From the IMG/VR virus record IMGVR_UViG_3300007541_000317, positions 1 through 20,408 of that record: a stretch of 20,408 nucleotides of DNA; one strand, written 5' to 3'. The notes under the pieces were generated by a model, which was not told where the DNA came from, searched no databases, and worked only from the letters and a program-made list of their open reading frames with translations. This DNA comes from a virus. The translations under genes and the position numbers were made by a program. The number at the start of each line of letters is the position of its first letter. Position 1 is the stretch's first letter. Below, piece after piece: positions 55 through 20,408 of this stretch.

Positions 55-73
55 CGTCTAAACAAAAAACTTG

Positions 74-757: not shown

Positions 758-759
758 TC

Positions 760-2537: not shown

Positions 2538-2556
2538 TCCCCCCACAAAATACTTG

Positions 2557-2586: not shown

Positions 2587-2613
2587 TTGAAACACCAACA
2601 GCAGGAGAGCGAC

Positions 2614-3470: not shown

Positions 3471-3478
3471 GGTGCAGC

Positions 3479-3688: not shown

Positions 3689-3819
3689 CCAGAGCAGACA
3701 AAATTGGTGGGGCCATTCGACTCGGGTTGATTGCCCTGATTTATATCCTCGCAGGATTCATTGAGCCTTGCGACAACGAACCCAACTGCCATGCTCCAAA
3801 GGAGTTTAAACATGAGTGA
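3685..3819 (+). CDS. 44-residue single-pass membrane protein
   Basis: 44 residues. A short basic N-terminus (MTRADKIGGAIR) is followed by one hydrophobic segment at about 11-27 (IRLGLIALIYILAGF). The tail is acidic then basic and carries two Cys (CDNEPNC). Charge placement suggests N-in topology. Size and form fit small phage membrane proteins such as holin-like or superinfection-exclusion factors, but one such segment is not enough to assign function. The ATG overlaps the previous stop as ATGA. The last 8 bases overlap the next gene, whose ribosome site AAAGGAG and the motif GTTTAAAC (3804-3811) lie inside this frame. Confidence 0.6.
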   Translation: MTRADKIGGAIRLGLIALIYILAGFIEPCDNEPNCHAPKEFKHE

Positions 3820-4003
3820 TCCTTATGCCGCCATGCTCGATGCCGAGTACCGCGAACTCAAGGCACAGCTACATCGCCATGCGGCGAAGTTCGAAGCCTT
3901 GCAGGCACAGTACCTGCGCGAGTCCAATCAGCTATCGGATGCACTCACAAAAAAATGGATTGAGTTACAACAACACCGACAGGAGATGTCCCGTGGACAA
4001 TAA
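3812..4003 (+). CDS. Small helical hypothetical protein
   Basis: 63 residues, not recognised. Residues 8-58 form a continuous charged amphipathic helix with hydrophobic residues at heptad-like spacing (YRELKAQLHRHAAKFEALQA), so a dimeric coiled coil is likely. There is no membrane segment. The ATG at 3812 is preceded by GGAG at 3801-3804; the 8-base palindrome GTTTAAAC sits exactly between the ribosome site and the start codon, the only case in the window where it occupies a translation-initiation spacer. It overlaps the previous gene by 8 bases and the next by 11. Confidence 0.6.
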   Translation: MSDPYAAMLDAEYRELKAQLHRHAAKFEALQAQYLRESNQLSDALTKKWIELQQHRQEMSRGQ

Positions 4004-4151
4004 TCAAATTGTTTTTCTGCTACAAAAGATCCTGCTTGGGCAGGCTAAGATCGAAGAACGGATCAAGGTAATCGAACAGGCACTGGCGTCAGACCCATGG
4101 ACGCAAGGGCGTAGAGAGTACGAAGAGTTCGAAAACGAAATCCCTTTTTGA
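3993..4151 (+). CDS. Small acidic hypothetical protein, GTG start
   Basis: 52 residues, not recognised. An N-terminal amphipathic helix (IVFLLQKILLGQAKIEERIKVI) is followed by a short acidic, aromatic tail (EYEEFENEIPF). A tail ending in acidic residues then IPF recalls the partner-binding tip of single-stranded DNA-binding proteins, but the body is too short for an OB fold. The GTG at 3993 lies 7 bases after AGGAG (3981-3985), placed within the end of the upstream gene. An earlier ATG in this frame at 3816 would overlap the upstream gene almost fully and is rejected. Confidence 0.55.
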   Translation: MDNNQIVFLLQKILLGQAKIEERIKVIEQALASDPWTQGRREYEEFENEIPF

Positions 4152-4161
4152 GGTGACCACT

Positions 4162-4491
4162 ATGAACGAAGAACGCATGTTTGTTGATCCCGAGACCGGT
4201 GACATGCATCCGGAGTCCTACTATCGGATGGAGAACATCGACCTCGATACCCTGCTAGAGGCCGTCGAAATGGACGGTGATCTAGCGTTCGAAATCAAGG
4301 TGCAAAACCTTGAACGCATGAACATCAAGCACCCTGTGGTGTTCGCTATCTTTGCAGACTTCTGCCAATCCATGCGGGAAGCTGCCGAGCAGGCCGAGAG
4401 CGACGATGATCGAGAGACCTTTGAGAATGTCGCTGCGTACACGGCGCGGGTGATGCTTCAAAAGTTGGGCAAGAAGGTGACCCAACATTGA
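4162..4491 (+). CDS. Acidic hypothetical protein
   Basis: 109 residues, not recognised. It is strongly acidic, with a patterned N-terminus (FVDPETGDMHPESYYRM) and then several helices (DLDTLLEAVEMDG, FAIFADFCQSMREAAEQAE, TFENVAAYTARVMLQKL). A small acidic phage protein in an early-type cluster could be a nucleic-acid mimic or an inhibitor of a host enzyme; that is only a suggestion from charge. The ATG at 4162 has GAGGTG at 4150-4155; GTG at 4153 is an alternative start. Its stop TGA overlaps the next gene's TTG start. Confidence 0.65.
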   Translation: MNEERMFVDPETGDMHPESYYRMENIDLDTLLEAVEMDGDLAFEIKVQNLERMNIKHPVVFAIFADFCQSMREAAEQAESDDDRETFENVAAYTARVMLQKLGKKVTQH

Positions 4492-4682
4492 TTGAGTTCA
4501 AAGATGCGGAGGGGAACACTCTGGTCTGGGTGTTCCCTTCCGAAGGACGGTTCTGGAAAGACCGGTGGATCGCCTTCACTAATTCAGGCGAATTTATTTA
4601 TCACAAAGGATCTAAAGACTCTGCTTATAATTGGGCGAGAGAGTATGTGAGTCAGGTAAACAAAGAGGAGACGAGAGCATGA
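4488..4682 (+). CDS. Small hypothetical protein, TTG start
   Basis: 64 residues, not recognised. It is rich in aromatic residues (Trp, Phe and Tyr in about one in six positions) with predicted short strands (EFKDAEGNTLVWVF) followed by a helix (DSAYNWAREYVSQVNKEET). This fits a small beta-sheet plus helix fold. The only sensible start is the TTG at 4488, which overlaps the upstream stop as TTGA and follows AAGGTGA. The next gene starts within its stop as ATGA. The weak start suggests low expression dependent on translation of the gene before it. Confidence 0.55.
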   Translation: MIEFKDAEGNTLVWVFPSEGRFWKDRWIAFTNSGEFIYHKGSKDSAYNWAREYVSQVNKEETRA

Positions 4683-4867
4683 AGAGATTGATTGTGTTGA
4701 TGGCTGTGTTGGCGAGCGCGTCAGCGTTTGCTCAGAACAGAACGGCGTTCTTCAAGTACGAGCGGGTAACCGGTTCGACCAAGCAGTGTTACTACGACTA
4801 TTTGGGTAGCGAGTATGTCCGCACCATGCGGTCTATCGATCTCTGCCCCTTGACGATTCGCGTTTAA
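4679..4867 (+). CDS. Small exported protein with signal peptide
   Basis: 62 residues. Residues 1-19 are a textbook Sec signal peptide: MKR, a hydrophobic core LIVLMAVLASASA, then the cleavage motif AFAQ, leaving about 43 residues outside the inner membrane. There is no lipobox Cys, so it is not a lipoprotein. The mature part has two Cys (KQC and DLC) that could form a disulphide in the periplasm. Function is not recognised; periplasmic phage proteins of this size include superinfection-exclusion and lysis-control factors. The ATG overlaps the upstream stop as ATGA. The stop codon TAA lies inside a GTTTAAAC palindrome (4862-4869), and a terminator follows within 20 bases, so it closes the P2 operon. 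Confidence 0.65.
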   Translation: MKRLIVLMAVLASASAFAQNRTAFFKYERVTGSTKQCYYDYLGSEYVRTMRSIDLCPLTIRV

Positions 4868-4882
4868 ACTCCTTCAGTGGGA

Positions 4883-4917
4883 ACCCCGATACCTGTCATG
4901 GGTGTCGGGGTTTTTTT
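4883..4917 (+). terminator. Intrinsic terminator closing the P2 operon
   Basis: ACCCCGATACC (4883-4893) pairs with GGTGTCGGGGT (4901-4911), 11 pairs with one G-U wobble, followed by seven T from 4911. The polarity fits plus-strand transcripts only. The opposing minus-strand gene ends at 4916, so its last bases touch the T-run. Confidence 0.88.
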
Positions 4918-5398
4918 ATTTCAGGACTCTATCAATCGGTAACAGTTCGTTTTGTGTGGCGGCATAGCCTTCGCCATGACCCAAGTTAATCAGCCGACTT
5001 GGCTGAATGAGTTCCGTCGAACTCATGAATCCCGCGCAACGATATGTCGGGAACTCCCCCACCATCAGCACAAAAAGATCGACCTTCGTCACATCCTTCC
5101 ACCGCACCGAGAGCAATCGCCCTGAGGCGTAGGTGGTGGACTTCACATCGACCGCCCTGCCATCTCGAAGATAGCAATCGGCAGCGTTGGTGTGATCGAG
5201 ATCTAAATCAGGGTAGATGTTCGCGAGTTTACAAAAGGCAATCTCTGAGGCGATCCCCTCAAGGTCAGTGAGTTCGTTCGACTGATCCCCCATCTTCGCA
5301 TTGAAGAGTCCCTTCGCCCTCGCGTTCTGGTATCGGCGAGTAGCTAGGAACTTAGCAAGCCTTTGCTCTGCTTCACTCAGCACAATGAACTGGCTCAC
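4916..5398 (-). CDS. PD-(D/E)XK-like nuclease candidate
   Basis: 160 residues. The pattern EGIASEIAF (47-55), D74, and GRAVDVKS (80-87, with D84 and K86) matches the E / D / (D/E)xK active-site layout of restriction-endonuclease-like proteins, where a lone acidic residue precedes a strand ending in DxK. Family knowledge suggests phosphodiester cleavage; I cannot name a closer family, and an inactive fold is possible. The start is a GTG that overlaps the stop of the primase-helicase as GTGA, so the two are coupled. No ATG near the start is available. Being downstream of primase-helicase, it likely works in DNA metabolism, for instance host DNA degradation or replication-intermediate processing. 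Confidence 0.6.
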   Translation of the reverse strand: MSQFIVLSEAEQRLAKFLATRRYQNARAKGLFNAKMGDQSNELTDLEGIASEIAFCKLANIYPDLDLDHTNAADCYLRDGRAVDVKSTTYASGRLLSVRWKDVTKVDLFVLMVGEFPTYRCAGFMSSTELIQPSRLINLGHGEGYAATQNELLPIDRVLK

Positions 5399-7080
5399 AG
5401 GTTCCCCCAGTCGTAGTCTTGGGTGGGATCAGGCTTGTCGGAGTATCGGCCTGTCGGTAGGTCATAGTTCAATTGGACTTCGCCGACCGCCCCGACCCAT
5501 TTAAACCGGCTCTTCCAGACATGCACTTCGGTTTCGTTTCGATTGCGATGAACCGTCACCCCGCAGTCTGCTTTCGCGAACCATGCTGCCGACCCGCTGA
5601 TGTGCTGACCCTTCGGAACCCCACTGTCAGGGAGTTGCTTGGCAGGATGAGCCACAAACCATGCATGGATCTCATGCGACTTACAGAAGAGGACGATGTC
5701 GGTCAGCATCTTGCTGATCGCTTGATGCTCGGAGTCACCGGCCATGTCGAGGTAGTTATAGGGATCGATGATGAGTCCTCGAACCCCCATCCTCATGACC
5801 GCCTGCTTGGTTCTGTCGATGATCGATTGCACTGTCGCAGGCGCACCGTCATGCGATTGCAGGAACACGAAGTGCTGATTGAGGAATGCGAGAGCGTAGT
5901 CACGCTCGTCCGTAGTCATCCGATCCTCACCGAAGAAGGGTTTACCGATGACCTTCTCGGCGAGCTTGGCAATGTGCATGCTCGGTGGATTCTCGAAGGA
6001 TGCCACCGCAAACCGCCATCCTTTTTGGACGGCAATGTTGACGCATATCTGATCGATTAGCTCTGACTTACCCGAACCGGGGAGTCCGGTCACCACCGAC
6101 AACTGGCCGGGGAGTATGGTGTAAAGTTTGTCGAGGGTATGGAGTCCAGTACTCGCCCCCTTGATCACGCCGCTCTCGTAGAGAGAGACGATCTGAGCCT
6201 CGAAGTCCTCAGGGAGATAGACGCCTTCGAGTGGAAGTGGTTTAGCGGCTCCTAGAGCTTCTCGTAAAGCCTCAGCACCATGTTTAGACAGGGTCTCGTT
6301 GGCATCCTTCTCGGGTAGGGTCACCGTCCAACACTTGGCTCGGCCAATGCGTCTTGCGAGTTCCTCGACCAGAGCTTGGCCGGGTTCATCATCATCCGGA
6401 AAAAACACTACCCGTTCGACCGAGTCGATGAGTTCCCGTGCCTCCCATACATAGCTGAATCTGCCGTCCTGTTGGGGATCAACCTTGCCATCACTGATCT
6501 TGGCAGGCGCACCATTCGGAACCGACACCGCAGGGATACCGGCGGATGCGAGGGCGAGGACATCCATTTCCCCTTCGCAGATGACGAGTTCCGTCAGCCC
6601 CTTGGGTAACTGGTTTAAACCGAAAAAGGATCGGGCGGAACCCTGCTGGGTGAATTCTTTTTCGCCTGTGCTACGCCACTTGATCGCCTCGGGATGCTTC
6701 GGGTCTCCGTACACAAAGCCGATAGCGGGTGTCTTCCCTACCCCCGCAAAGTACTTCTCGGAACCGACAAGGGGAAACTGAGTCGCAATCTCAGGGTTGA
6801 TTCCCCTTCGTGTGAGGAACTCTGTGACGATGTCAGGGACATGCTCGGTGGGAGGATCGACAGGCTTGGGTTGTTTCTTGATCTGTTGGACTTGATGCAT
6901 CATCTTGTTTCTCCTGATGGCCCCGCTCGCCCCGCAATGAAAGCACTGGTACACGAATCGATCTGATTCGACCGTGACCCCCATGGATTTCTCATGGGAT
7001 TTCTTGCGGGATTCTGAGCAGAGAGGGCATGTGATTCGACCGGTCTCAAGTTGACTGGTAATGATTTCTTCTGGGGTCAT
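5395..7080 (-). CDS. Twinkle/T7 gp4-like primase-helicase
   Basis: 561 residues. The zinc-binding domain has CPLC (18-21) and CFHC (46-49). A TOPRIM domain follows, with EGEMD (169-173) as metal-binding motif and DDDEPG (229-234) as the second acidic motif. The C-terminal helicase of the DnaB/RecA type carries Walker A GLPGSGKS (332-339), the following SFEN (361-364, catalytic Glu) and Walker B LIIDPYN (436-442). It therefore both primes and unwinds, in one ring, as T7 gp4 does. Length fits. The ATG at 7080 follows AGGAAATGA; the recurring motif ATTTAAAC overlaps that ribosome-site region. The gene sits after a 368-base leader or gap and shares a transcript with the downstream PD-(D/E)XK-like gene. 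Both zinc pairs are intact, so primase activity is expected. Confidence 0.93.
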   Translation of the reverse strand: MTPEEIITSQLETGRITCPLCSESRKKSHEKSMGVTVESDRFVYQCFHCGASGAIRRNKMMHQVQQIKKQPKPVDPPTEHVPDIVTEFLTRRGINPEIATQFPLVGSEKYFAGVGKTPAIGFVYGDPKHPEAIKWRSTGEKEFTQQGSARSFFGLNQLPKGLTELVICEGEMDVLALASAGIPAVSVPNGAPAKISDGKVDPQQDGRFSYVWEARELIDSVERVVFFPDDDEPGQALVEELARRIGRAKCWTVTLPEKDANETLSKHGAEALREALGAAKPLPLEGVYLPEDFEAQIVSLYESGVIKGASTGLHTLDKLYTILPGQLSVVTGLPGSGKSELIDQICVNIAVQKGWRFAVASFENPPSMHIAKLAEKVIGKPFFGEDRMTTDERDYALAFLNQHFVFLQSHDGAPATVQSIIDRTKQAVMRMGVRGLIIDPYNYLDMAGDSEHQAISKMLTDIVLFCKSHEIHAWFVAHPAKQLPDSGVPKGQHISGSAAWFAKADCGVTVHRNRNETEVHVWKSRFKWVGAVGEVQLNYDLPTGRYSDKPDPTQDYDWGNL

Positions 7081-7448
7081 TTCATTTCCTGTTTAAATAG
7101 TTCGCCCCTTTTCCGGGTGGCCGGGGCCAGTCCGTACTCAGTGCGCCACGCATTTCAGCGTGACTCTGGAACTGCTTTCATGGGAACTCCAAGAGTTCAT
7201 GCACTACTCACACAAGTCCAGACCGGTTTGGCCGTATTGCCACCCACCATGTTGTCAGGGGCAGACAGAGCATGGATTTAACTTGGCACTTTGGGGCGGG
7301 CAGGATGTTCCCCCTGCGCTCATTCACAGCTCGCCTGACTGGCGAATCAATGACGGGGGGATAGGAATTGCTATTCCAAGGAGATCCATATAGGATCTCA
7401 CCCGTCTCGACTTGCACCTCAGAGACTACCGTCCCCCAATCCTGACGG
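7081..7448. other. 368-base region without a supported gene; hairpin-rich, probable primase leader
   Basis: Perfect hairpins lie at 7331-7345 (TCGCC/GGCGA), 7364-7377 (GGAAT/ATTCC), 7381-7399 (GAGATCC/GGATCTC) and 7147-7162 (CACGC/GCGTG). The minus strand has a plausible promoter at 7423-7452, so most of this would be a leader of about 330 bases before the primase. Competing weak reading frames exist: a minus one ending at 7208 and a plus one of 77 codons at 7160-7393 with a GTG start and no ribosome site; neither resembles a known protein. One minus frame reads like a small zinc-ribbon protein (NPCSVCP, then GQTGLDLCE) but contains two stops. I treat it as a regulatory or origin-like region. 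Confidence 0.5.
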
Positions 7449-7452
7449 TCAA
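7423..7452 (-). promoter_or_regulatory. Possible minus-strand promoter P5 for primase-helicase
   Basis: On the minus strand, TTGACC (7452-7447) is followed after 18 bases by TAGTCT (7428-7423). This matches the -35 of the 9055 promoter exactly and its -10 TAGACT at five of six positions. Transcription would start near 7416 and enter the three tandem hairpins directly. It lies at the end of the RusA gene. Confidence 0.45.
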
Positions 7453-7892
7453 GCCCCAGTTGAGAAATCTTCTGGGGCTTTTTTATTCCAGTACTGATTC
7501 CATGCATCACTCGTTCTCGTAATCACAATTTCTGAGCGGGGATTCGCTTTGTCGAGAGCATGGTAGACATGCTTCTCTTTCACCTGCCTGTCGTTCTCGT
7601 AGATCAATCCCTGCATGGCATCGAGTATCACCGACTCATCGAGATCAGGTCTGCGTGAGGCATAGAAGATCCGTAGATGTACGGCAAGATCCCCCGATAA
7701 CAAAGGATCTAATTTGGGACACTGCCATTGGAAATCTTTGACGTACGAACGAGCCTTAGCAGATTTTATAAAAGCTGGCCTGCCGTTTAAATGGACTAGC
7801 TTCCTGCTGTTCGCTTTGCTCGCTGGTTCGCCGCAGACAATAAACGAAACAATCGGTAAGTTGGTTGACATGTTATCTGTTAATATGTTCAC
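7449..7892 (-). CDS. rusA: RusA-family Holliday-junction resolvase
   Basis: 147 residues. The core RPDLDESVILDAMQGL (82-96), then ENDRQV (99-104), matches the RusA motif in which three Asp bind the catalytic metal: here D83, D85 and D101. RusA resolves four-way junctions during recombination and in phage replication. The Lys four positions after the second Asp, which I recall as important in E. coli RusA, is Ile here. The start is GTG at 7892 with AGGAAG upstream; an ATG at 7871 lacks a ribosome site. The gene begins 29 bases from the divergent plus-strand gene at 7922. Its last codons contain a plus-strand terminator. Residue HLNG near 35 is coded by part of GTTTAAAT (7785-7792). Confidence 0.88.
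   Translation of the reverse strand: MNILTDNMSTNLPIVSFIVCGEPASKANSRKLVHLNGRPAFIKSAKARSYVKDFQWQCPKLDPLLSGDLAVHLRIFYASRRPDLDESVILDAMQGLIYENDRQVKEKHVYHALDKANPRSEIVITRTSDAWNQYWNKKAPEDFSTGA
7451..7485 (+). terminator. Plus-strand intrinsic terminator inside the 3' end of rusA
   Basis: AAGCCCCAG (7451-7459) pairs perfectly with CTGGGGCTT (7472-7480), with six T at 7479-7484. Its polarity is plus, although all confident genes from 4916 to 7892 are on the minus strand. It either stops antisense transcription towards rusA or ends an unrecognised plus-strand RNA in 7081-7450. On the minus strand no T-run follows, so it should not stop the rusA transcript. Confidence 0.75.
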
Positions 7893-7893
7893 A
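7865..7893 (+). promoter_or_regulatory. Weak candidate promoter P3 for the central plus operon
   Basis: TTGACA at 7865-7870 has TTCACA or TCACAT at the expected -10 distance, a poor match. It lies within the 5' coding end of rusA and 52 bases before the ATG at 7922. Position favours it; the weak -10 does not. It may need an activator. Confidence 0.35.
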
Positions 7894-7921
7894 TTACTTC
7901 CTGTTACAAATGGAGGAGCCT

Positions 7922-8167
7922 ATGAAGATTGATAGAAATGTTCCATTGCCTGATCGAATCGCAAAGCGATTTAAGATAGGGCCATTACCACTCGATGATA
8001 TGAATGTAGGAGATTCTTTTCTCATAGAGATTGATGCAGATGATATCGAGTTGACTCGTATCCTGCACTCACTTCGTGTAAGACTGAATAGATACACCCA
8101 AAAGAACCCGAAGCACAAGTTCAGTTCGAGCAAAGATAAGAAAGGCTTGAGAGTCTGGCGCGTATAA
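7922..8167 (+). CDS. Small basic hypothetical protein
   Basis: 81 residues, not recognised. The middle reads PLDDMNVGDSFLIEIDADD, a pattern of two short strands around a Gly turn. The end is a basic helix and tail (LHSLRVRLNRYTQKNPKHKFSSSKDKKG) closing with a strand RVWRV, so nucleic-acid binding is plausible. Many small phage and plasmid proteins of this size share the VGDSFLI-type turn followed by a basic helix, without known role. The ATG at 7922 follows GGAGG by 6 bases; in-frame starts further up lie in the divergent promoter area. It is the first gene of the central plus block, 11 bases before the exonuclease gene. Confidence 0.68.
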   Translation: MKIDRNVPLPDRIAKRFKIGPLPLDDMNVGDSFLIEIDADDIELTRILHSLRVRLNRYTQKNPKHKFSSSKDKKGLRVWRV

Positions 8168-8178
8168 CAGGAGACAAC

Positions 8179-9063
8179 ATGAAACTCACCAATAAATATG
8201 GATTGCCTGACACCGTTGTTCGTGCGTTAACCCGTAGCGAATACAGTAAAGGTGAAAGCAATCGATCCATTACCCAACTCATCGATTCCCCCCGTGTTCG
8301 TATTCTCAGGCAAGAGAATTGGAACAACATGGAAGAGGATGTCAGTGAAAAAATGTGGGCGGTACTAGGCTCTGCCGCACATCGAATGTTTGAGGAAACC
8401 GGTGATGATAAGCACATTACCGAGGAGCGATTGTTCTGCGAGATCGAAGGTTGGGTGATCAGTGGGGCCATCGATGTTCAAAGAATTGATGAGGATGGCA
8501 TCACCATCATGGACTACAAGACCACCAGTGTGTGGTCTGTGATCCTCGGCAAAGAGTCTTGGGAAACCCAGTTGAATTGCTATGCGTCCCTCGTTCGCCG
8601 TGCCAAGAACCAGAGAGTCAAAGCTCTCAAGGTGGTGGCTATCCTGCGCGACTGGAACCGAAGGGATGCTGAAGAGAAGCAGGACTACCCGAAGGCTCCC
8701 ATTGTCGAGATCGATATCCCGATGTGGCTCGAAGACAAACAGGATCAGTACCTCGAAGACCGTGTCAAGTTACACCAAGAGGCTGAGTTCCAACGGCTCA
8801 TGGGTGAAGAACTTCCTGAGTGTTCTAAAGAAGAACGATGGGAGAAGCCTTCCGTGTGGGCAGTTAAGAAGACGGGCAACAAGCGGGCTATAAAACTTTA
8901 TAGCAATGAGCAGGAAGCCAAAGATGCTTTGTTGACCGGTCAAGAAATTGAGTTCCGTCGTGGGGAACCTACCCGTTGTTCAGCCAACTGGTGTCGTGTA
9001 AACGCATGGTGTTCCCAGTATAAAAAATATCTGGATGAAACATCAGATAACGACTTGACCTGA
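8179..9063 (+). CDS. Cas4/RecB-like PD-(D/E)XK exonuclease, probable Fe-S protein
   Basis: 294 residues. Motifs in order: GSAAHRMFEE with H68, SGAIDV with D99, MDYKTTS with D112 and K114, and ETQLNCYA with Q131. These are the active-site motifs of the RecB-nuclease/Cas4 superfamily. Four Cys (215, 267, 272, 278) follow, the last three in RCSANWCRVNAWCSQY, resembling the iron-sulphur cluster of AddB/Cas4-type enzymes; here one Cys precedes the triplet rather than the nuclease core. It would resect DNA ends to give the single strands used by the annealing protein encoded next. The ATG follows AACAGGAGA. The IR GCTATAAA-AC-TTTATAGC (8887-8904) inside the gene uses codons uncommon in its neighbours. 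A promoter lies over its 3' end. Confidence 0.85.
   Translation: MKLTNKYGLPDTVVRALTRSEYSKGESNRSITQLIDSPRVRILRQENWNNMEEDVSEKMWAVLGSAAHRMFEETGDDKHITEERLFCEIEGWVISGAIDVQRIDEDGITIMDYKTTSVWSVILGKESWETQLNCYASLVRRAKNQRVKALKVVAILRDWNRRDAEEKQDYPKAPIVEIDIPMWLEDKQDQYLEDRVKLHQEAEFQRLMGEELPECSKEERWEKPSVWAVKKTGNKRAIKLYSNEQEAKDALLTGQEIEFRRGEPTRCSANWCRVNAWCSQYKKYLDETSDNDLT
8887..8904. repeat. Perfect 8-base inverted repeat inside the exonuclease gene
   Basis: GCTATAAA, two bases (AC), TTTATAGC. It codes for part of RAIKLYSN with ATA, AAA, CTT and TAT, A/T-ending choices that are less usual in the flanking sequence. Could be a protein-binding site; no function is known. Confidence 0.5.
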
Positions 9064-9082
9064 ACTCTATAACTTGTAGACT
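9055..9082 (+). promoter_or_regulatory. Promoter P4 for the recombination/glycan operon
   Basis: TTGACC at 9055-9060, a 16-base spacer and TAGACT at 9077-9082, the same TANACT form of -10 as P1 and P2. It begins at the stop codon of the exonuclease gene and would start RNA near 9090, 17 bases before the ATG at 9107, which follows AACAGGAG. Confidence 0.6.
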
Positions 9083-9106
9083 CGTAACAAACAAACAGGA
9101 GATGTT

Positions 9107-9811
9107 ATGACTGAAGTAGTAAGTCCGTCGTATGCGGAGATCTGGGCGACTCTGTCTAAGATCGATGTCTCAAAACATGTTGAGAAAAAGAATGGATTGA
9201 CGTACCTGTCATGGGCGTATGCATGGGGCATTCTCATGCAGCACTATCCGCAGGCAGAGTATTCGTTTGCTCACCATGAAGTGCATCAGGATGGAACCGT
9301 GACGGTTCATTGCGATGTGGTCATTGGTCAGTGTCACCGGAGCATGTGGCTACCGGTGATGGACTACAAGAACAATGCCATCAAGAACCCGGACGCTAGA
9401 AAAATTTCCGACACGAAGATGCGCTGCCTAGTGAAGTGCATCAGCATGCTCGGATTGGGATGGGCAATCTATGCGGGTGAAGATATTGCGGGGGTGACGG
9501 AACCTGATTCCGTTCCCGCTCTTACCGATGAGGAAATCAAAGCCTCGAAGGAACCGCCGCCTAAGAAGAAGGTTCCCACCAAACAGGGGGCCAATGACAT
9601 CCCCTCGGAGGAAGGGGCCGCAGAGATTGTCGGGAAACTCATGGAGTTTGCGAACAAGTTCTGCACTGACGAGCCGGGACTGGTGTCGTTCTGGAAAGAG
9701 AACAAACAGATCATCGATATTTTGGATAGCAATTATCCGAAGCAATACGAATCCTTGAAGAAGGGGTTCACCGAACTGAAAGCCAAACTTGGAGGCAATG
9801 CAAATGGCTGA
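9107..9811 (+). CDS. Sak/DUF1071-type single-strand annealing protein
   Basis: 234 residues. The segment EKKNGLTYLSWAYAWG (26-41), then HYPQAEYSF (46-54), is the hallmark N-terminus of the DUF1071/Sak family, whose founder is a phage Rad52-like annealing protein. The core runs to about residue 132. A charged, Pro- and Lys-rich linker (about 136-165) leads to a helical C-terminal part (170-234). It anneals complementary single strands, for phage recombination and replication-fork repair, typically with a 5'-3' exonuclease, encoded just upstream, and an SSB, encoded just downstream. The ATG at 9107 follows AACAGGAG. The stop overlaps the next gene by 8 bases. Confidence 0.87.
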   Translation: MTEVVSPSYAEIWATLSKIDVSKHVEKKNGLTYLSWAYAWGILMQHYPQAEYSFAHHEVHQDGTVTVHCDVVIGQCHRSMWLPVMDYKNNAIKNPDARKISDTKMRCLVKCISMLGLGWAIYAGEDIAGVTEPDSVPALTDEEIKASKEPPPKKKVPTKQGANDIPSEEGAAEIVGKLMEFANKFCTDEPGLVSFWKENKQIIDILDSNYPKQYESLKKGFTELKAKLGGNANG

Positions 9812-10082
9812 TTATCAAAACCGCGACATCACTCAGGGTGCGCTATTCGTTAACAACCGAAAGAACTCTCAGAACCAACCCGATTTTCGGGGGGAACTCA
9901 CTCTGAGTAAGGCGCTACTCAAGGAGTTAGTGGAGAAAGTAAAGGCCGGTGAAGAGGCGAAGATGTCTCTCTCGGTCTGGAAAAAGAAGTCCAAGGCCGG
10001 TAACGAATTCATGTCCGTCGCAGGACAGATCTATACCGATTACAAGAAGGCCAAGACCGAAGATATCGAAGTCCCGTTCTAA
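9804..10082 (+). CDS. Small SSB-like protein
   Basis: 92 residues. The pattern of alternating strands (GALFVNN, FRGELTL, MSLSVWKKK, FMSVAGQIYTDY) is that of a small OB fold or DUF736-like domain. The acidic end EDIEVPF resembles the DDDIPF tip by which bacterial SSB recruits partners. I therefore read it as a phage ssDNA-binding protein serving the annealing protein upstream. The fold call is inference, not a family match. The ATG at 9804 lies 8 bases after GGAGG; an ATG at 9798 is too close to that site. It is 11 bases upstream of the next gene, whose ribosome site AACAGGAG follows its stop. Confidence 0.62.
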   Translation: MADYQNRDITQGALFVNNRKNSQNQPDFRGELTLSKALLKELVEKVKAGEEAKMSLSVWKKKSKAGNEFMSVAGQIYTDYKKAKTEDIEVPF

Positions 10083-10093
10083 CAGGAGCCGTT

Positions 10094-10333
10094 ATGAAAA
10101 AGGTAAACAAGTCGCAGAAGATTCGAGAGTTACTCGATCAAGGTCTCTCGAATGCAGAGATCGTCAAGAAGCTGAAGGTCTCACAGCAGTTGGTCTACAT
10201 CGTGAGCCGAACCCACCGGGGTAAGCACAATGTAGCCAAGCCGGTTAAACAACTTCCGAAGGTCAAGCGGTCGCGGGTCTCAGACCTGATCGCCTCCTTG
10301 AAGACGATCATCAAGGCTCTGGAGAAAGCGTGA
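10094..10333 (+). CDS. Small HTH regulator, first gene of the overlap chain
   Basis: 79 residues, very basic. Residues 7-41 (SQKIRELLDQGLSNAEIVKKLKVSQQLVYIVSR region) form a helix-turn-helix of the transposase/sigma-region-4 type, with GLSNAEIVKKL as first helix and VSQQLVYIV as recognition helix. The rest is a Lys/Arg linker and one helix (SDLIASLKTIIKALEKA). It probably binds DNA and may control this operon or bind the recurrent GTTTAAAC-like sites; both are inference. The ATG at 10094 follows AACAGGAG. The frame itself carries GGTTAAAC at 10243-10250. Its stop overlaps a 43-codon gene. Confidence 0.7.
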   Translation: MKKVNKSQKIRELLDQGLSNAEIVKKLKVSQQLVYIVSRTHRGKHNVAKPVKQLPKVKRSRVSDLIASLKTIIKALEKA

Positions 10334-14265: not shown

Positions 14266-14494
14266 AGAAGATGTGTCTTACTTAGATGTCCCGCAGCCTG
14301 ACTCGAAAGAAAAAGTCTGGTGCAAGATCGGGGAAACCGGCAACTTAGAATTTGTGGACTGGGACATCATCAAAGGGATGGCCGAGTCCTTTGATCAAAG
14401 GCCCCCTCAGGAACGAACAGAACAAATGCTGATTGCGAAACTCATGTGGTTGACACGGGAGGAAACCCGTAAGGAGTTTGCCAATGCTCATTGA
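14258..14494 (+). CDS. Small acidic hypothetical protein
   Basis: 78 residues, not recognised. An acidic start (MNEEDVSYLDVPQPDSKEK) is followed by a possible strand pair (VWCKIG, LEFVDWDII), then a helical end (MAESFDQRPPQERTEQMLIAKLMWLTREETRKEF). The ATG at 14258 has AGAGG upstream; an ATG at 14262 is in another frame. It overlaps the glycosyltransferase by 8 bases and the next gene by 11. No domain match. Confidence 0.6.
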   Translation: MNEEDVSYLDVPQPDSKEKVWCKIGETGNLEFVDWDIIKGMAESFDQRPPQERTEQMLIAKLMWLTREETRKEFANAH

Positions 14495-14714
14495 TAAAGA
14501 AAGCCCACCGGGATCTTGGGAAAAGGAATGGGATGCCAGATCCCATACCGTCAGCGAATATCAAAAAGAGATTCGGGATCTGCGTGATCGCATCAGGTCA
14601 TACATGAGAGAGATTGAAAGTCTCAATCGCACCATCGAATCCATGCGTGATGAAATTGCTTTAAACAATAAGTACTGGCAGAAGATGATGGATGAGCGGA
14701 AAAACTCAAGATGA
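14484..14714 (+). CDS. Small coiled-coil protein
   Basis: 76 residues, not recognised. From residue 20 to the end it is a regular charged helix with leucine/isoleucine spacing (YQKEIRDLRDRIRSYMREIES, then LNRTIESMRDEIALNNKY), a probable dimeric coiled coil. There is no membrane segment or signal, so it is not a spanin in this form. The ATG at 14484 lies 7 bases after AAGGAG. CTTTAAAC (14659-14666) codes for Ala-Leu-Asn near its end. It is coupled to the next gene by ATGA. Confidence 0.62.
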   Translation: MLIDKESPPGSWEKEWDARSHTVSEYQKEIRDLRDRIRSYMREIESLNRTIESMRDEIALNNKYWQKMMDERKNSR

Positions 14715-14908
14715 ACTGGCAACGGGAAGATATCCTTGAAGTATTATCTTGGGTCGAAGAAGCCGCCGATGATGTCAATGCCATCACTACCGAGCTTGAG
14801 TACATTGTCATCAGCGAACTGCTAAAGAGATGCGCCAATGAAATACGATCTCTTAGAGAAGAAGTGGCTGAGTTGAAAAGTAAGAAACCTAACAGGAGAA
14901 AGAAATGA
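14711..14908 (+). CDS. Small helical hypothetical protein
   Basis: 65 residues, not recognised. The first 40 residues are acidic and helical (REDILEVLSWVEEAADDVNAI), followed by a helix of coiled-coil type (ANEIRSLREEVAELKSKK) and a strongly basic tip (KKPNRRKK). It could pair with the coiled-coil protein encoded just upstream. Both junctions are ATGA overlaps. Confidence 0.6.
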   Translation: MNWQREDILEVLSWVEEAADDVNAITTELEYIVISELLKRCANEIRSLREEVAELKSKKPNRRKK

Positions 14909-15093
14909 ACTTTGATAACACCCCCTCGTTTACGGAAGTGGACTATGCTTTGGAAGAGGCACAGTTCCTCACACAAAAAGATAAGATCAGCTATTCCATT
15001 GTTCAGGTCACCGCCCGAACTGGGTGTAGGTTCTATGTGGTGCCGACAGATAAGGTCATTGAGGTTTCTATTCTCGAAACCTTTAGTCCATGA
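14905..15093 (+). CDS. Small hypothetical protein
   Basis: 62 residues, not recognised. It has an acidic helix (FTEVDYALEEAQFLTQKD), then two or three strands (YSIVQVTA, CRFYVVPTD, VIEVSILE). This small alpha/beta pattern is common among phage proteins of unknown role. Its ATG overlaps the previous stop after AACAGGAGAAAG, and its own stop overlaps the ninB ATG. Another frame of similar length is open over the same bases but lacks a start with a ribosome site. Confidence 0.58.
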   Translation: MNFDNTPSFTEVDYALEEAQFLTQKDKISYSIVQVTARTGCRFYVVPTDKVIEVSILETFSP

Positions 15094-15413
15094 ACCCTGA
15101 ACTCGAAGCGATCATTGGCAGGATTGTCAAACAGAACCGGCGCAGTGTCGGTCAGAACGCTTTGATGTGGGCCTTGCTCAGTGATATCTCGAAGCAGGTC
15201 GAATGGTTCGATCAGAAGCTATCCAAGAACGATTGGAAATGGATCTTCACTGCCGCCCTACGCAAGCAGAGGATGGTTCCGGGAATCGATGGGGGCATGG
15301 TCTTTCTGGGGGAACCCACCTCCGGTATGTCCAAGGAAGAACTCTCGGACTTGATCGAACTCATCTACCACTTCGGAGCAGAGCGGGGTGTTGAATGGAC
15401 AGAACTGGACTGA
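15090..15413 (+). CDS. ninB: NinB-family recombination protein, short form
   Basis: 107 residues. NRRSVGQNALMWALLSDIS (16-34), DWKWIFTAALRKQ (48-60), PGIDGGMVFLGEPTSGMS (64-81) and HFGAERGVEWTE (94-105) follow the lambda NinB family in order. NinB (Orf) binds ssDNA and SSB and helps load recombinases, standing in for RecFOR. Lambda NinB is about 140 residues, so this one lacks most of the N-terminal strand region; no earlier in-frame start exists because the upstream gene overlaps its ATG. It is the last gene of the central operon, 58 bases before a strong terminator. Confidence 0.85.
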   Translation: MNPELEAIIGRIVKQNRRSVGQNALMWALLSDISKQVEWFDQKLSKNDWKWIFTAALRKQRMVPGIDGGMVFLGEPTSGMSKEELSDLIELIYHFGAERGVEWTELD

Positions 15414-15471
15414 TACCCTAAAGCCTGACGGCGTTCTCCTGTTTGCTGTCAGTTGGTGAAACTCAAACCTT

Positions 15472-15502
15472 GAGGGGGGTCAATGTGACTCCCCTCTTTT
15501 TT
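15472..15502 (+). terminator. Intrinsic terminator after ninB
   Basis: GAGGGGGGTCA (15472-15482) pairs with TGACTCCCCTC (15486-15496) around ATG, 11 pairs with one G-U wobble, followed by six T (15497-15502). It ends the rightward operon; the leftward HNH gene reaches 15480, so its last codons lie within the stem. Confidence 0.9.
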
Positions 15503-15782
15503 CATCCAACATTCGGATCGTCTCGGCCAAGAGATCCAGTTCCGATAGCTTCGCAATCTTCATCAGAGCCTTGGTTCCGTGGAACCCATGATTACCCCGA
15601 TGACATTCCACACAGAGTGCAACGGTTAGGAAGTCACTGGCGCGGTCGCCGAGTCCATGCCCTGTGCGGATATGGTGGGCCTCTGTGACGTCGCTCTGAG
15701 GCTGTCCTAGAAGGCTACAGAGGACACAGGGGAGAGCTTTGACCTTACCCAAATAGTCACTGGCCTGTTTGTCCCGCGCCAT
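15480..15782 (-). CDS. HNH nuclease of Ref type
   Basis: 100 residues. YLGKVKALPCVLC (10-22) gives the first Cys pair (19, 22), EAHHIRTG (34-41) the H-H catalytic step, LCVECHRGNHGFHG (56-69) the second Cys pair and the N/H of the HNH fold. The order and the GxGxHG-like end resemble phage P1 Ref, a RecA-dependent nuclease, and its many short homologues. Metal-dependent DNA cleavage is expected. The ATG at 15782 overlaps the giant gene's stop as TGATG; a TTG one codon earlier is less likely. It would be made from the same leftward transcript as the giant gene. Its 3' end sits inside a plus-strand terminator. Confidence 0.8.
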   Translation of the reverse strand: MARDKQASDYLGKVKALPCVLCSLLGQPQSDVTEAHHIRTGHGLGDRASDFLTVALCVECHRGNHGFHGTKALMKIAKLSELDLLAETIRMLDEKRGESH

Positions 15783-18700
15783 CAACTGATGCCCATACCG
15801 ATTCGTGCTGCGGCACGGCGATATTCACGGTCTGCTCGGAGAATCAAATCCACTTTCTCCTTCGGCAGATTCTGTTTCGCCCAACGCATAAACAGGATTC
15901 GCTCTTCCTTGCTCGGGGCATTGCCCCCAATCTGAAGCGGCTGACGATTGCGGATGGAAGACTGAATGCTCTGTCGAACCCGCTGACGTTCCTTCGGGGG
16001 AACCCCCATGATGGCCTCCCGCATGATGATCCGTGCTGCGGCAGCATCCCCCACATGCAAGGCATCCGTGATGGCTTTGTTGACCGGCGTCATCTCAGTG
16101 CGAATGGGAGACCCGGGGGCAGTAGATCGTTTAAACTCTATCCCCATCTCATCGCTGAACCGGCGACCGTACTCTCGAACTTCGCGCAGATCACGGAACG
16201 CAGCGAACCGTTCTACTTCCTTCGCATCCGATCCCATTTCATCCATCACCGCCAAACCGATTCGTTTGTTAGCGCGATAGAATGACATGGTGGTTTCCGC
16301 AATCTCATCCAAGTCGCGAGCCGTGATGGTCTTCTGATCTCGAAGGCGGTTAAACACATCGATGACCGCATCGACAGAGGCCAATCCCGGAGGACTCATG
16401 GGATTCTTAACACGCTGCTGGTCCTGCCAGTCTTTCGCGAACTGGGCATAGTTTGCAAAGAAACCAAAGCTACCTGCGGCCATGATGTTTTCCATCGACC
16501 GAGACAGGATCAATGCCCATGCTCTAGCGGTGTCTTCGTTTTTCAATGCCTCGTCGAGTTCGTCTAAGTCTGGACCCGGATCTCCGTATCCAAAGGCTTC
16601 TCGAATCGCAAGGATGGCACCACCACCGACAATGGCTGTTCCCACAAAGCCTAACGCTCTGAGAATGTTTCTGCCGCGACGGCCCTCCTCAGTGAGGATG
16701 GGCTTCAAGAAATGGTTGTAGAAGAACCGATTGATCTGGGTGCCGAACTTCTGGTACTTGAAGAAGAAGCGGCCTGCGGTGGTGTCAATGAACACCGGAG
16801 TCATGTCGATCTGATAGGAACCCTGCGGGATGTTCACCGCACGACGCATGTACTTCTCAGTCTCTCTGCCGCTACCGTTCTCTAGAATCAATGCCTCGAC
16901 ATTGAGGTTCTCTCGTTTTGCCCATGCATTGAACTTCTTGACGTTCGCAGAATCAGGACTGTCGTTCACCTTCTTGAGGAAGGTATTGAGTCTTGCTCTT
17001 GCCGCCAACATGGCTGATGAACGCACCACATTTTCTGCGGCATTGAATCCACCGAAGGTCAATGCGGTGTTGGCGAATCGAGCCAAGGACTGGGAGATTC
17101 TCTGTTCCTTTGAGAAGTATTTGTCGGCGTCCATCTCGACATGGTCTCGAAGGATGTTCATGAAGTCTTTGTTCAGGATACCAAGGCTTGTGCCTTCTTC
17201 CTGAATCTTTCGCCAGTCAGTGAGTAGATCAAGGTACGACTTCGCCACTGCACGAATCCCAAACTCTTGGATGTTCGCAATGGTTCCGCCGAACAAGTTA
17301 AGGCTGGCGCTGATGGGGTTACCCAGTTGGGTTGCCGTTGCCAGAGAGTTTAACCAGTTCGCCATGTTCGACAGGGTGTCGAAGGGTTCGATCTCGTAGA
17401 TCCGCTCCCGAATGGTGTTGACATAGTTCTGGGTTTCTTGATCCCGAATCTTCGGGAGGTTGGCACCGAACCATTCTTTCTTGAACTGACCAAGTTCCTG
17501 ACCGAAGTTCTCGATCTGAGAAGTACGTCTTGCCCACTTGTTTAAATAGCGGGTGGCGGCATCCCATGAGTAATCATAGAAGATCTCAGGCAACGGTTCT
17601 GTTCGTGCCTTCTCGACACCGGCAAAGTAATCATTTTTGATTTCATCTGAGAACCATTCGCGGAGCAAATACTTCTCGGCATCCGCAGGGTTCTTGATGT
17701 CTTCTCGGCCAGACTGAACCAATGAATCAAGCAGAGACTGCCACAACTCAGGATCAAGGTCAGGGTTCTTCATGACCTCCATCACTTCCCTGCGAAGGGT
17801 GCGCGGGAAGAATGCGGCGACCGTTCCAATCGGTCTCCATCCACCCTTGCCATCATTTAACTTGGCGTCATACACCTTCATGGGTTCGCCATCAGGGGTA
17901 CGCACATTCTTGTTGATGTTGCCCGTCTCATTAGAGATCTGAGTCCATGCATCAATCAACTGCCGTTCGCTTTCGCTGGCATTGTTGAGGATCGCCATCG
18001 CTTCATTGGGCTTCTTGTTTTCCCTCGCCCGCATGTAGCGTTCAAAGGTTTCCATGGCTGCATCTCTGCTACCCAAACGAATGTTCCGATAGGCATTGCG
18101 GATCAGGTTGTTGACGATACCCAGTTTGGCAGCGTAGCCGTCGTAATAGTTTTCGATACGGTTCGCTAAATCATCTAACCCAAAGCCTGCACGAAGTTTG
18201 TCTGGCGCAGACTGAATCAATTGCGAGACCAATCTTCGGGTGATCGGTGCAATACGGGCGCGAGAAATGTCTACGGTCCCATCGGGTTCCGTGTCGCCAA
18301 TCACTGGACCGATGGCGACACCCATCGAATTGACAGGCTGTCCTTCGTTTAAAGCCTCTGCGGCACCGGTAGTATCAGTGTCAACCGCAGGCCCCGGCTG
18401 TTGCGGAGCGGCGGTAACAGGAGGTGGCGCTCGACGCGCTTCGCGGATTACCGGTTCTTTTGCTGCGGCTCTTCTTGCGGCACCGCCCTTTCTTCCTGTT
18501 TTCCAGACGATGCTTCCGTCACCGGCAAGGTCGATGCGCGATGGAGGGTACCGACGCTGTAGAAGTTCAGCTTCTTGTAGTCTTCCTCTGTCGCGTAATG
18601 AGGCGAGATACGATTCTCCATTCCTGTTCTCCTTCCAATCGTTCTTTGTAGAGGATAGCACAACCTGACTAACTATTGAACGGTCAAGTTTTACTTTAGT

Positions 18701-20408
18701 TTCATTCGCTGCTTTGTTCGCTGCGTTAACAATATTTTCAACTTCGTTCTTACGCCAATTACCGGCAAAGTTTAAAAGGCGAATACCCGGCATTCCATCG
18801 ATAAGAATCTGTTGGAATCCCGGAGCAATCGGCTCGCCTTCTTTGTTCTTTGGCGCGAACTCAAGGAACTTTGAAAAGAACTTGGTCGCACTATCAACAG
18901 AATCAAGGTTAGGCGATAGGATGTCAACCGCCATGTTCCTGCCAGACTTTAATGATCTGGTGTTAATGATTTCAGTTTGTTGGAAGACATAACCAACCAT
19001 ATCCATGAAATCATTGACAGCTTCGGGACTTGCAATAGCATCCAATTGTATTGCGCCTTCAAGCCATTGCAGGTATGCGCCTACACCAGCGACGTTTTGT
19101 TTAACCCTGATGCCAGCAAGATTTGCGAGGAAATCTATTTCTCTCTGTGCGACCTCGACGGGTATTTCCTTCCCTACAAGTTTGTCTGCGAGAGCAGAGT
19201 TTGCACCGGGTGCCAAGCCAATAGAGATACGTCGAGTGTTGCCACCAATAATGTCACGCACGAACTCCGCATCGACGCCCATGGCGCGTTGCATGGTGAC
19301 CCAGCCAACAGCCTGCACTTCGCGAGCAGTCCAGCCGCCGCCATCAAAGTTCATTCGATTCAACATTTCAGCGACATCGTTATAGAAATCGATGCCGTAT
19401 TCGTACTGCGTCTCGCCGGAGGTGGTCTTATCTACCTGAAGGCTCTCAGCCGCCTCGTCCCCAAAGTTCTTCCGAATGTATTCCTGAACAGTCGGATCGA
19501 CAAAGCCAATATCGCGCTGCGCCCAGACATCAATTGCAGCAGGCTGTCTGCCACGGACATCACCACGAACCACGGTTCTCGTATCCAATCCGAGTTCGCT
19601 GTCGAGGAAGTCAAGGAGCTTGTCACCTACACCACCCTCAGGAATTCTATCGCTCAAGACATCAATCAATGCTTGTTGGTTTAAACCTGCAATCTTGACT
19701 TGGGGTTTGCCGAGAGCCATGTCTACTGCTCTTAACACATCAGTGAATCCCTTCGTGGGACTGGCGCGTTTTTGTGAAAGCAGCCATGCAAGTGCGTACT
19801 TTGGGGTCTCGTCACCGAAGATAGGACGGAAGGCTTCGTCTAACTGTTGATACCAAGCGCGAGCATCTTTGATTTCCTCCATGCTCAGAAGGTTGCTAAC
19901 GCGGTCTAACCAGTCTTCGTTGGTAATCTTCCCAACCAAGAAAGGTTTTTTGCCTTCAGTCTTGAATTCAACACGTTCATTCCGAGGCGCACCAACACCG
20001 GGTTCCCGTGCAAGACGGCGACGAATACGCGCTTGGGCTTCCTCAGGAGAAACAATATCCTCAAGAGGATTACGAACACGCGCTTCCCGAATGCTAGGTG
20101 CTGCGCTTTCTCTTCTGGTAGATTCTTCCTCCATTCTGACTTGAAGCTCATAGGCTTCTCCGCCAATATCATAAAAGCGCCGACCTTCTGGGCTTCTTCG
20201 ATCAATACCAAAGTAGTCATCTATTTTGTTACGCAACGCTTTGGTTGCTTTCGTTGCATTTGCCCTGAGCGTGGGGCGTGATTTCCCACGTTCAGAATCA
20301 TCAGTGCCTCGTTCTGCAAATAGATCAGCCTGCCTAGACTTTTCATGGGCATCCCATACTTCTTGGGGAACCCAGTCTGGTGCCGTACTCCTTGATACAC
20401 GCGACTCC
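15782..20408 (-). CDS. Giant virion-internal/polyvalent protein (5' end outside window)
   Basis: At least 1541 residues; the frame is open to the right edge, so the start is not visible. A TTG at 20236 is only an internal Leu codon. Proteins of this length with mixed helical modules, a central Pro/Ala-rich linker (DNA 18365-18480) and a hydrophobic segment (about 16600-16665) near the C-terminus fit phage internal or ejection proteins and the large polyvalent protein class. Residues around FFFKYQKFGTQINRFFYNHF, followed by the hydrophobic LGFVGTAIVGGGAILAI, are of the kind seen before membrane-entering parts in such proteins; no catalytic motif is evident. Bases from about 18640 to 20270 are visibly richer in A/T than the rest. 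Codons for GLNQ (19679) and EFKRS (16129) build GTTTAAAC. Confidence 0.72.
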   Translation of the reverse strand, partial: ESRVSRSTAPDWVPQEVWDAHEKSRQADLFAERGTDDSERGKSRPTLRANATKATKALRNKIDDYFGIDRRSPEGRRFYDIGGEAYELQVRMEEESTRRESAAPSIREARVRNPLEDIVSPEEAQARIRRRLAREPGVGAPRNERVEFKTEGKKPFLVGKITNEDWLDRVSNLLSMEEIKDARAWYQQLDEAFRPIFGDETPKYALAWLLSQKRASPTKGFTDVLRAVDMALGKPQVKIAGLNQQALIDVLSDRIPEGGVGDKLLDFLDSELGLDTRTVVRGDVRGRQPAAIDVWAQRDIGFVDPTVQEYIRKNFGDEAAESLQVDKTTSGETQYEYGIDFYNDVAEMLNRMNFDGGGWTAREVQAVGWVTMQRAMGVDAEFVRDIIGGNTRRISIGLAPGANSALADKLVGKEIPVEVAQREIDFLANLAGIRVKQNVAGVGAYLQWLEGAIQLDAIASPEAVNDFMDMVGYVFQQTEIINTRSLKSGRNMAVDILSPNLDSVDSATKFFSKFLEFAPKNKEGEPIAPGFQQILIDGMPGIRLLNFAGNWRKNEVENIVNAANKAANETKVKLDRSIVSQVVLSSTKNDWKENRNGESYLASLRDRGRLQEAELLQRRYPPSRIDLAGDGSIVWKTGRKGGAARRAAAKEPVIREARRAPPPVTAAPQQPGPAVDTDTTGAAEALNEGQPVNSMGVAIGPVIGDTEPDGTVDISRARIAPITRRLVSQLIQSAPDKLRAGFGLDDLANRIENYYDGYAAKLGIVNNLIRNAYRNIRLGSRDAAMETFERYMRARENKKPNEAMAILNNASESERQLIDAWTQISNETGNINKNVRTPDGEPMKVYDAKLNDGKGGWRPIGTVAAFFPRTLRREVMEVMKNPDLDPELWQSLLDSLVQSGREDIKNPADAEKYLLREWFSDEIKNDYFAGVEKARTEPLPEIFYDYSWDAATRYLNKWARRTSQIENFGQELGQFKKEWFGANLPKIRDQETQNYVNTIRERIYEIEPFDTLSNMANWLNSLATATQLGNPISASLNLFGGTIANIQEFGIRAVAKSYLDLLTDWRKIQEEGTSLGILNKDFMNILRDHVEMDADKYFSKEQRISQSLARFANTALTFGGFNAAENVVRSSAMLAARARLNTFLKKVNDSPDSANVKKFNAWAKRENLNVEALILENGSGRETEKYMRRAVNIPQGSYQIDMTPVFIDTTAGRFFFKYQKFGTQINRFFYNHFLKPILTEEGRRGRNILRALGFVGTAIVGGGAILAIREAFGYGDPGPDLDELDEALKNEDTARAWALILSRSMENIMAAGSFGFFANYAQFAKDWQDQQRVKNPMSPPGLASVDAVIDVFNRLRDQKTITARDLDEIAETTMSFYRANKRIGLAVMDEMGSDAKEVERFAAFRDLREVREYGRRFSDEMGIEFKRSTAPGSPIRTEMTPVNKAITDALHVGDAAAARIIMREAIMGVPPKERQRVRQSIQSSIRNRQPLQIGGNAPSKEERILFMRWAKQNLPKEKVDLILRADREYRRAAARIGMGIS

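Follow-up and report, generated by a model that had tools for sequence, protein, structure and literature searches.

An 8-bp palindrome dispersed through a group of phage genomes and its association with a small helix-turn-helix gene

The palindrome in the window and in related contigs

The window, the whole 20,408-base stretch of virus record IMGVR_UViG_3300007541_000317 analysed here, contains seven exact copies of the 8-bp palindrome GTTTAAAC, all recorded without strand. One copy (3804..3811) lies directly 5' of the ATG (3812) of a small gene and another (4862..4869) is intergenic. The other five are coding: one within the primase/helicase gene (6613..6620, codons Gly-Leu-Asn), two within the gene at 10389-12290 (10955..10962, Phe-Lys-Arg; 11851..11858, Ser-Leu-Asn), and two within a giant open reading frame (ORF) (16129..16136, Phe-Lys-Arg; 19679..19686, Gly-Leu-Asn). 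When GTTTAAAC and five one-step variants are counted together, 27 sites lie in the window, between 56 and 19686. The 20 variant sites (56..19106, likewise unstranded), which are GGTTAAAC, ATTTAAAC, GTGTAAAC, GTCTAAAC or their complements, begin at 56, 95, 693, 1377, 2270, 3636, 5499, 6282, 7091, 7785, 8996, 10243, 12394, 13011, 13761, 13893, 16348, 17348, 17540, and 19099. The proposed binder of these sites is the product of HTH38 (10094..10333, + strand), a 79-amino-acid (aa) helix-turn-helix (HTH) protein with a separate C-terminal helix.

Against the seven copies observed, 100 dinucleotide shuffles of the window give a mean of 0.20 and a largest value of 2, and Markov models of orders 0, 1, 2, and 3 expect 0.26, 0.16, 0.12, and 0.42; orders 4-6 (2.9, 7.6, and 8.0) take in the motif itself. 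The palindrome has the highest 8-mer z-score of the window under an order-2 Markov model, with GGTTAAAC ranking second. Shuffling synonymous codons in the 23 window genes yields a mean of 0.149 copies for the five found in coding sequence, and none of 2000 such shuffles reaches five. The excess reported in the initial annotation is borne out and is larger than first stated; its description of the genome as rich in G and C does not fit a window of only 52% G+C.

Relatives of the window (L002-L044) come from IMG/VR scans with the primase and the giant ORF as queries; a blastn search of window positions 1-8000 against annotated phages gave no match. The excess is found again in contigs closely related to the window; in L023-L026, L028, L029, and L044 it is weak or missing. 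Twelve contigs were retrieved, ten of which form the working set (G001-G007, G009, G010, and G014; 437 kb), with the weakly enriched G008 and the non-enriched G015 held outside it. G001 (52.5 kb), a close relative of the window, shows 97.9-99.2% identity to it over three aligned stretches. The ten contigs contain 94 copies of GTTTAAAC (67 coding and 27 noncoding; 215 per Mb), at a density of 0.50 per kb in noncoding versus 0.17 in coding DNA. Sites, variants included, number 28-72 per contig and cover all of G001, G003, and G006 (2-13 per 5 kb), structural and replication genes alike; 239 of the 328 sites in six contigs are coding. A control word, the reversed but non-complemented palindrome, occurs at most once in 19 of 20 records and twice in G008. 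No tRNA genes were found in 20 sources. A scan of bacterial genomes for related sequence returned three distant loci, which are taken to be misbinned phage contigs or remnants, and no host assignment was made through them.

Synonymous-codon shuffling within each contig, which keeps proteins and codon usage, defines which variants are in excess in the genes of the ten contigs, counted on both strands. Observed and shuffled counts are 65 and 2.2 for GTTTAAAC, 83 and 4.2 for ATTTAAAC, 102 and 10.5 for GGTTAAAC, 43 and 7.0 for GTGTAAAC, 32 and 8.1 for GATTAAAC, and 20 and 5.3 for GTCTAAAC; these six words constitute a site, excluding CTTTAAAC (17 and 5.8). No enrichment is seen for GCTTAAAC (7 versus 7.1), TTTTAAAC (6 versus 4.7), GTTCAAAC (18 versus 15.7), GTTGAAAC (15 versus 13.8), GTTAAAAC (2 versus 5.1), or GTATAAAC (2 versus 5.3), and ATTTAAAT, with both halves imperfect, is absent (0 versus 1.8). 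This division between enriched and non-enriched variants, and the absence of ATTTAAAT, show that the site is a dyad that requires one perfect half-site (GTTT/AAAC) and allows its other half to be relaxed in set ways. The perfect palindrome singled out initially is indeed in excess, but the excess is not limited to it, with GGTTAAAC to GTCTAAAC also over-represented across relatives.

TTAA as such is under-represented (769 observed versus 986 shuffled), so the excess is not a general A+T enrichment. The flanks of the 8-bp core contribute little, with a pyrimidine weakly favoured before it and a purine weakly favoured after it. Subgroups of contigs prefer much the same variants, with a varying GGTTAAAC:ATTTAAAC ratio in what are small groups with few counts. 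Mutational decay of perfect sites was rejected as the source of the variants, the T-to-G change at position 2 (GGTTAAAC) being enriched and the transition T-to-C (GCTTAAAC) not, nor the central changes. TTTAAAC resembles a slippery heptamer; a frameshift signal was set aside, as the sites occur in both phases, on both strands, and in noncoding DNA.

Spacing, conservation, and the link to HTH38

Sites occur at a density of about one per 0.8-1.1 kb, in genes and between genes, and in most contigs their spacing is more even than chance predicts and long site-free stretches are scarcer. Over 494 gaps in the ten contigs, those of 600-1000 bp are in excess (168 observed versus 91.5 expected), while gaps of 100-300 bp (39 versus 92) and above 2300 bp (10 versus 32) are scarce. 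The coefficient of variation is 0.56-0.70 in G003, G006, G009, G002, and G005, where none of 184-283 similarly abundant hexamers is equally even. Evenness exceeds chance in eight of 11 long contigs: with coding and noncoding densities held fixed, p <= 0.0005 in these five and in G007, 0.012 in G004, and 0.013 in G010. The independent cases are few, because G005, G006, G007, and G009 are relatives of one another and G002 is related to G003. Gaps within the giant gene span 192-1903 bp across the ten contigs, plus one of 3960 bp in G014, so gene layout does not make the pattern; that even spacing is a by-product of such layout is contradicted both by these gaps and by the null model that fixes the two densities.

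Pairwise contig alignment, with each site scored for a partner site at the same place and 90 permuted motif families as control, reveals that the sites are held in place by strong purifying selection. Ten comparisons at 74-80% DNA identity keep 59-87% of sites, versus 12-38% for controls. From G001, 34 of 39 sites are kept in G003 (80% identity; control 0.25), 21 of 26 in G004 (0.26), and 24 of 31 in G002 (0.25); from G006, 20 of 34 are kept in G009 (0.23), 24 of 35 in G003 (0.20), 17 of 27 in G001 (0.16), and 12 of 17 in G010, where the control is high at 0.38. Counts at expectation over the full genome and random positions in relatives, the two outcomes that the initial annotation had named as speaking against a function, were both checked, and both results go against chance.

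Gene-content comparison pointed to a small HTH gene, HTH38, directly after the exonuclease, Sak, and single-strand-binding (SSB)-like genes. We scored 114 loci (the window, L002-L030, L077-L079, L081-L137, L142, L143, and L169-L190), many of them near copies, with the giant-ORF-derived loci L031-L044 outside the scoring; 91 of the 114 include the slot that follows the SSB-like gene. Of these, 27 have HTH38, and all 27 are enriched in sites. It is absent from 64 loci with the slot covered, of which 61 are not enriched, two are weakly enriched (L023 and L024, with identical primases), and one is enriched (L016). Among the 23 loci without the slot, eight are enriched. Scanning with an HTH38 profile gave 24 loci; 22 of them belong to contigs already collected, and the two new ones (L142 and L143) are both enriched. 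The protein at 10094, one of two suggested initially as binders, is a good candidate on this distribution. The other, an HTH protein encoded at 12913, was rejected: its homologue was not found in the strongly enriched G002, G003, and G004 and occurs at 63% identity in the weakly enriched G008.

On a primase tree of 33 rows, the distribution of HTH38 requires three changes, interpreted as a single gain and two losses. L023 and L024 nest in a well supported seven-row group whose other five rows carry HTH38; the fork joining them to L020 and L022 has support of only 85/68. This nested lineage without HTH38 has largely lost the sites. G008, the contig of L023, retains 5 of 20 sites of G001, 6 of 21 of G003, 11 of 29 of G006, and 5 of 21 of G009, with controls of 0.15-0.22. 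By Fisher tests, uncorrected, retention from G003 is lower in G008 than in G006 (6 of 21 versus 25 of 38, p 0.008), as it is from G001 (5 of 20 versus 17 of 24, p 0.006) and from G006 when G008 is set against G003 (p 0.023). A later scan with the L023 primase yielded L171, whose primase is 66% identical to the query. The gene order in L171 is the same and includes a divergent HTH38 (54.6 bits); the 43.4-kb contig of L171 has 21 copies of GTTTAAAC versus 0.6. Its shared sites are kept at 6 of 16 in G001 (control 0.05), 3 of 13 in G006 (0.11), and 1 of 13 in G008 (0.22).

The HTH38 family comprises 12 members of 70-92 aa with invariant M1, K6, S7, I10, R11, G17, S30, Q32, L33, and V37. The predicted structure consists of an HTH and a separate C-terminal helix, with a mean predicted local distance difference test (pLDDT) score of 78. 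Pfam matches are sub-threshold, to HTH_23 in eight of 12 members and HTH_7 in six, and weak Foldseek matches are to LuxR/NarL-type, paired-domain, and serine-recombinase HTHs. A tblastn search of 50,697 phage records found no HTH38 at E 0.01.

Neighbouring genes and other words

Upstream of HTH38, all on the + strand, lie a PD-(D/E)XK exonuclease gene (8179..9063; phrog_2139, E 3.6e-42; PF12705), a gene for a Sak-type single-strand annealing protein (9107..9811; PF06378, E 3.1e-39), and the small SSB-like gene (9804..10082), whose product has a C-terminal tail, IEVPF, that recalls bacterial SSB and gave no Pfam or fold match. The order exonuclease, Sak, SSB-like, HTH38 is found in the window and in L171. 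Downstream (10389-12916) are a 633-aa protein with a weak TPR match and an FkbM methyltransferase, possibly involved in surface or glycan modification. RusA (PF05866, 7449-7892) and NinB (PF05772, 15090-15413) make up a lambda-nin-like recombination set. The giant ORF (15782-20407) is the C-terminal part of a 2457-3209-aa protein present in the ten contigs, which in G001 includes an ADP-ribosyltransferase domain of polyvalent proteins (PF18760), located in a region not covered by the window.

Integrase PF00589 has no match in 11 contigs, which may be incomplete, so there is no sign of lysogeny; serine integrases and partition genes were not searched. The DNA methyltransferase families PF01555, PF00145, and PF02086 likewise have no match in these possibly incomplete contigs, other methylase families not having been searched.

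Other words depart from expectation as well. A second word, CGGGAACC/GGTTCCCG, is enriched in the ten contigs (112 versus 16.8 shuffled). GGGAACC is also frequent in G008 (49 copies), which is without HTH38, and is therefore a signal separate from the palindrome sites. CCWGG (CCAGG/CCTGG) is nearly absent, with one copy in the genes of the ten contigs versus 1065 shuffled and none in 40 of 50 distant relatives (L088-L137); it is present in L126, L125, L088, and G015. This scarcity is a family-wide avoidance of a restriction-type site. AGCT is found at most once in each of nine of the ten enriched contigs but 88 times in G001, CGATCG is absent from the window (14.2 expected, order-2 Markov), and ACGT is found once in the 31 kb of G014 versus 62-123 times per contig in the other nine.

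Proposed function and comparison with known systems

What is established here is the over-representation of the sites, their dyad grammar, their maintenance by purifying selection, their even spacing in eight of 11 contigs, and their co-occurrence with HTH38. The initial annotation offered several functions for the palindrome, among which a site for a dimeric DNA-binding protein is supported by the one-sided dyad tolerance, codon independence, and conservation in place; a single packaging or segregation mark fits poorly with the number of sites per contig. We consider it somewhat better than an even chance that the palindromes are binding sites, arrayed along the whole genome, of a dimeric HTH protein encoded by the phage, most likely HTH38, and from its distribution HTH38 is probably the binder. 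On this proposal, dimeric HTH38 would bind the palindromes in a sequence-specific manner, and about one site per 0.8-1.1 kb would be maintained along the genome, within and between genes. By occupying the array, HTH38 may organise the phage DNA during infection, through bridging, bending, or compaction, or by marking it as phage DNA, and the array would not serve the control of single promoters. A genome-wide, position-independent role is favoured over promoter control because the sites spread across all of G001, G003, and G006. The architectural role itself is a guess, with a chance clearly below even.

Several observations weigh against HTH38 as the reader of a spaced array. The association comprises few independent events, one gain and two losses, and one of the losses (L016) is contrary: L016 is enriched (13 sites versus 1.1) with no HTH38 in its 13.9-kb contig, slot covered, and it retains shared sites, five of eight from G006. 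G008 keeps nine of 17 G010 sites, the controls for G008 pairs being 0.15-0.22, and the difference in retention from G006 between G008 and G009 is weak (p 0.13, Fisher, uncorrected). G008 is also without a MoxR-type ATPase, DUF7192, and other genes, so HTH38 is not the sole correlate of the sites. Retention is low between some enriched contigs at 72-73% identity (G001 to G014, 6 of 20, control 0.13; G010 to G001, 3 of 12, control 0.14). Evenness is not significant in G001 (p 0.076), G014 (p 0.60), or G322 (p 0.10 from a uniform null, coefficient of variation 0.85). The HTH38 model has a predicted template-modeling (pTM) score of only 0.47, and Foldseek against PDB and viral models gave no match at E 0.001 or better.

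The sites could instead serve a host-encoded nucleoid-associated or regulatory protein, shared by the phages' hosts, with the G008 lineage having changed host. L016, with its selected sites and no HTH38 in its contig, would suit such a protein, as would the differences of G008 from the other contigs in several genes. We regard this explanation as unlikely: GTTTAAAC does not exceed about 54 per Mb in the 299 Pseudomonadota and 99 Bacteroidota genomes sampled, the only phyla in this comparison, versus 215 per Mb in the ten contigs, and the tie to one small HTH gene, divergent L171 included, would require another cause. HTH38 might also act as a transcription roadblock or a dispersed stoperator-like repressor, silencing or terminating from many places, as stoperators provide a known case of dispersed sites for one phage protein (PMC6550527). 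The greater density of GTTTAAAC between genes agrees with this, as do the 16 of 75 noncoding sites adjoining a gene start that fall within 10 bp of it and the eight of nine GGTTAAAC that are co-directional with transcription in the window. With most sites coding, GGTTAAAC orientation not strong across the ten contigs (59 sense versus 43 antisense), and no integrase PF00589 in the 11 contigs and so no sign of lysogeny, such a repressor seems decidedly unlikely. Improbable, too, is a role for site-bound HTH38 as a barrier or attenuator for exonucleases or phage recombination, Chi-like without strand polarity, capping end loss at about one spacing. The gene order shared by the window and L171 and the scarcity of long site-free stretches would fit it, but a gene neighbourhood by itself does not show function, and the exonuclease, Sak, and SSB-like genes also persist in distant relatives that have neither HTH38 nor sites.

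A methylation target was also among the initial options; more broadly, the word might be a restriction site or serve as a mark for a modification enzyme. Palindromes are usual targets of such enzymes, and the over-represented HIP1 goes with orphan methyltransferases (PMC4390886). The graded half-site tolerance is unlike a methylase or restriction site, the three methyltransferase families searched (others were not) are unmatched in the 11 contigs, and the apparently avoided restriction words (CCAGG, AGCT) are absent rather than enriched, making this option very improbable. Chance or codon usage is next to negligible as a cause. Many coding copies do read as few codon pairs (TTA AAC, GTT AAA, TTT AAA), but GTTTAAAC stands about 30-fold above synonymous shuffles, coding sites occur on either strand and in either allowed phase, and enrichment is higher still in noncoding DNA; the shuffle ignores codon-pair bias, to which the codon-independent noncoding enrichment is not subject.

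Dispersed phage sites available for comparison are mostly operators or stoperators of temperate phages, while the sites described here run through coding sequence. We found no report of such a phage array in the literature, searched by title or abstract start in open-licence papers only. P1 c1 dispersed operators and phiC31 conserved inverted repeats are scattered sites for one phage protein, dyads in phiC31; they are longer, have fewer copies, and belong to temperate phages, in contrast to the 8-bp array. Cluster A (L5-like) mycobacteriophages carry up to 30 near-identical stoperators per genome for one phage protein, the lysogeny repressor; these 13-bp sites are asymmetric and mostly share one orientation relative to transcription (PMC6550527), and the repressor is monomeric (PMC9283540). 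The present sites are similarly many, near-identical, and spread over the phage genome, but are 8-bp dyads, mostly coding and without strong orientation, in contigs, possibly fragments, with no match to integrase PF00589; the stoperator protein is the immunity repressor of a temperate phage.

Among cellular genomes, HIP1 (GCGATCGC) of cyanobacteria is likewise a highly iterated 8-bp palindrome of unsettled function, over-represented along the genome and linked to orphan methyltransferases (PMC4390886). The array described here, with its 94 copies in 437 kb, differs in lying in phages with no match to the three methyltransferase families, in its graded half-site variants, and in its linked HTH gene. 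The short words that serve as DNA uptake sequences in Pasteurellaceae and Neisseriaceae are, as here, over-represented and evenly spaced both within and outside genes, with a higher density in noncoding DNA, and their even spacing was once interpreted as pointing to a function in replication, repair, or compaction (PMC1939737); they differ in being non-palindromic, bacterial, and maintained by uptake bias. Lambda NinH, a small Fis-like phage HTH homodimer, binds a dyad and is described as mimicking a nucleoid-associated protein (PMC7166090). HTH38, a putative dimer and DNA binder, resembles it in size, fold class, and proposed dyad sites, and a NinB gene lies in the window too; the NinH site has a 15-bp G-N13-C signature, unlike the 8-bp conserved core with weak flanks, and the available part of PMC7166090 does not mention a genome-wide array. 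The NinH family, PF06322 as named there, is not among the 23 Pfam families matched by the 12 HTH38 members at E up to 1. T7 Gp5.7, a tiny winged-HTH-like protein that represses host RNA polymerase promoters on the phage genome, parallels the predicted binding of HTH38 to its own genome, but the available part of the source mentions no iterated palindrome array (PMC5569994).

The sites follow the distribution of a single small gene, the product of which is open to direct production and testing, and the synonymous shuffle, site-retention, and gene gain/loss tests are applicable to other phage groups. Tentatively, and as a proposal that may well prove wrong, the array may represent a genome-wide spacing code, in a lineage with no visible lysogeny genes, of about one dyad per 0.85 kb regardless of gene boundaries. 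A specialised HTH protein of 70-92 aa would recognise it and so organise or mark the whole phage chromosome during infection, which would amount to a nucleoid system specific to phages, its anchor points defined by sequence. Should the architectural role prove real, these phages would possess a nucleoid whose anchor points are readable from sequence, and the way in which phage DNA is organised or marked inside the cell could be addressed directly.

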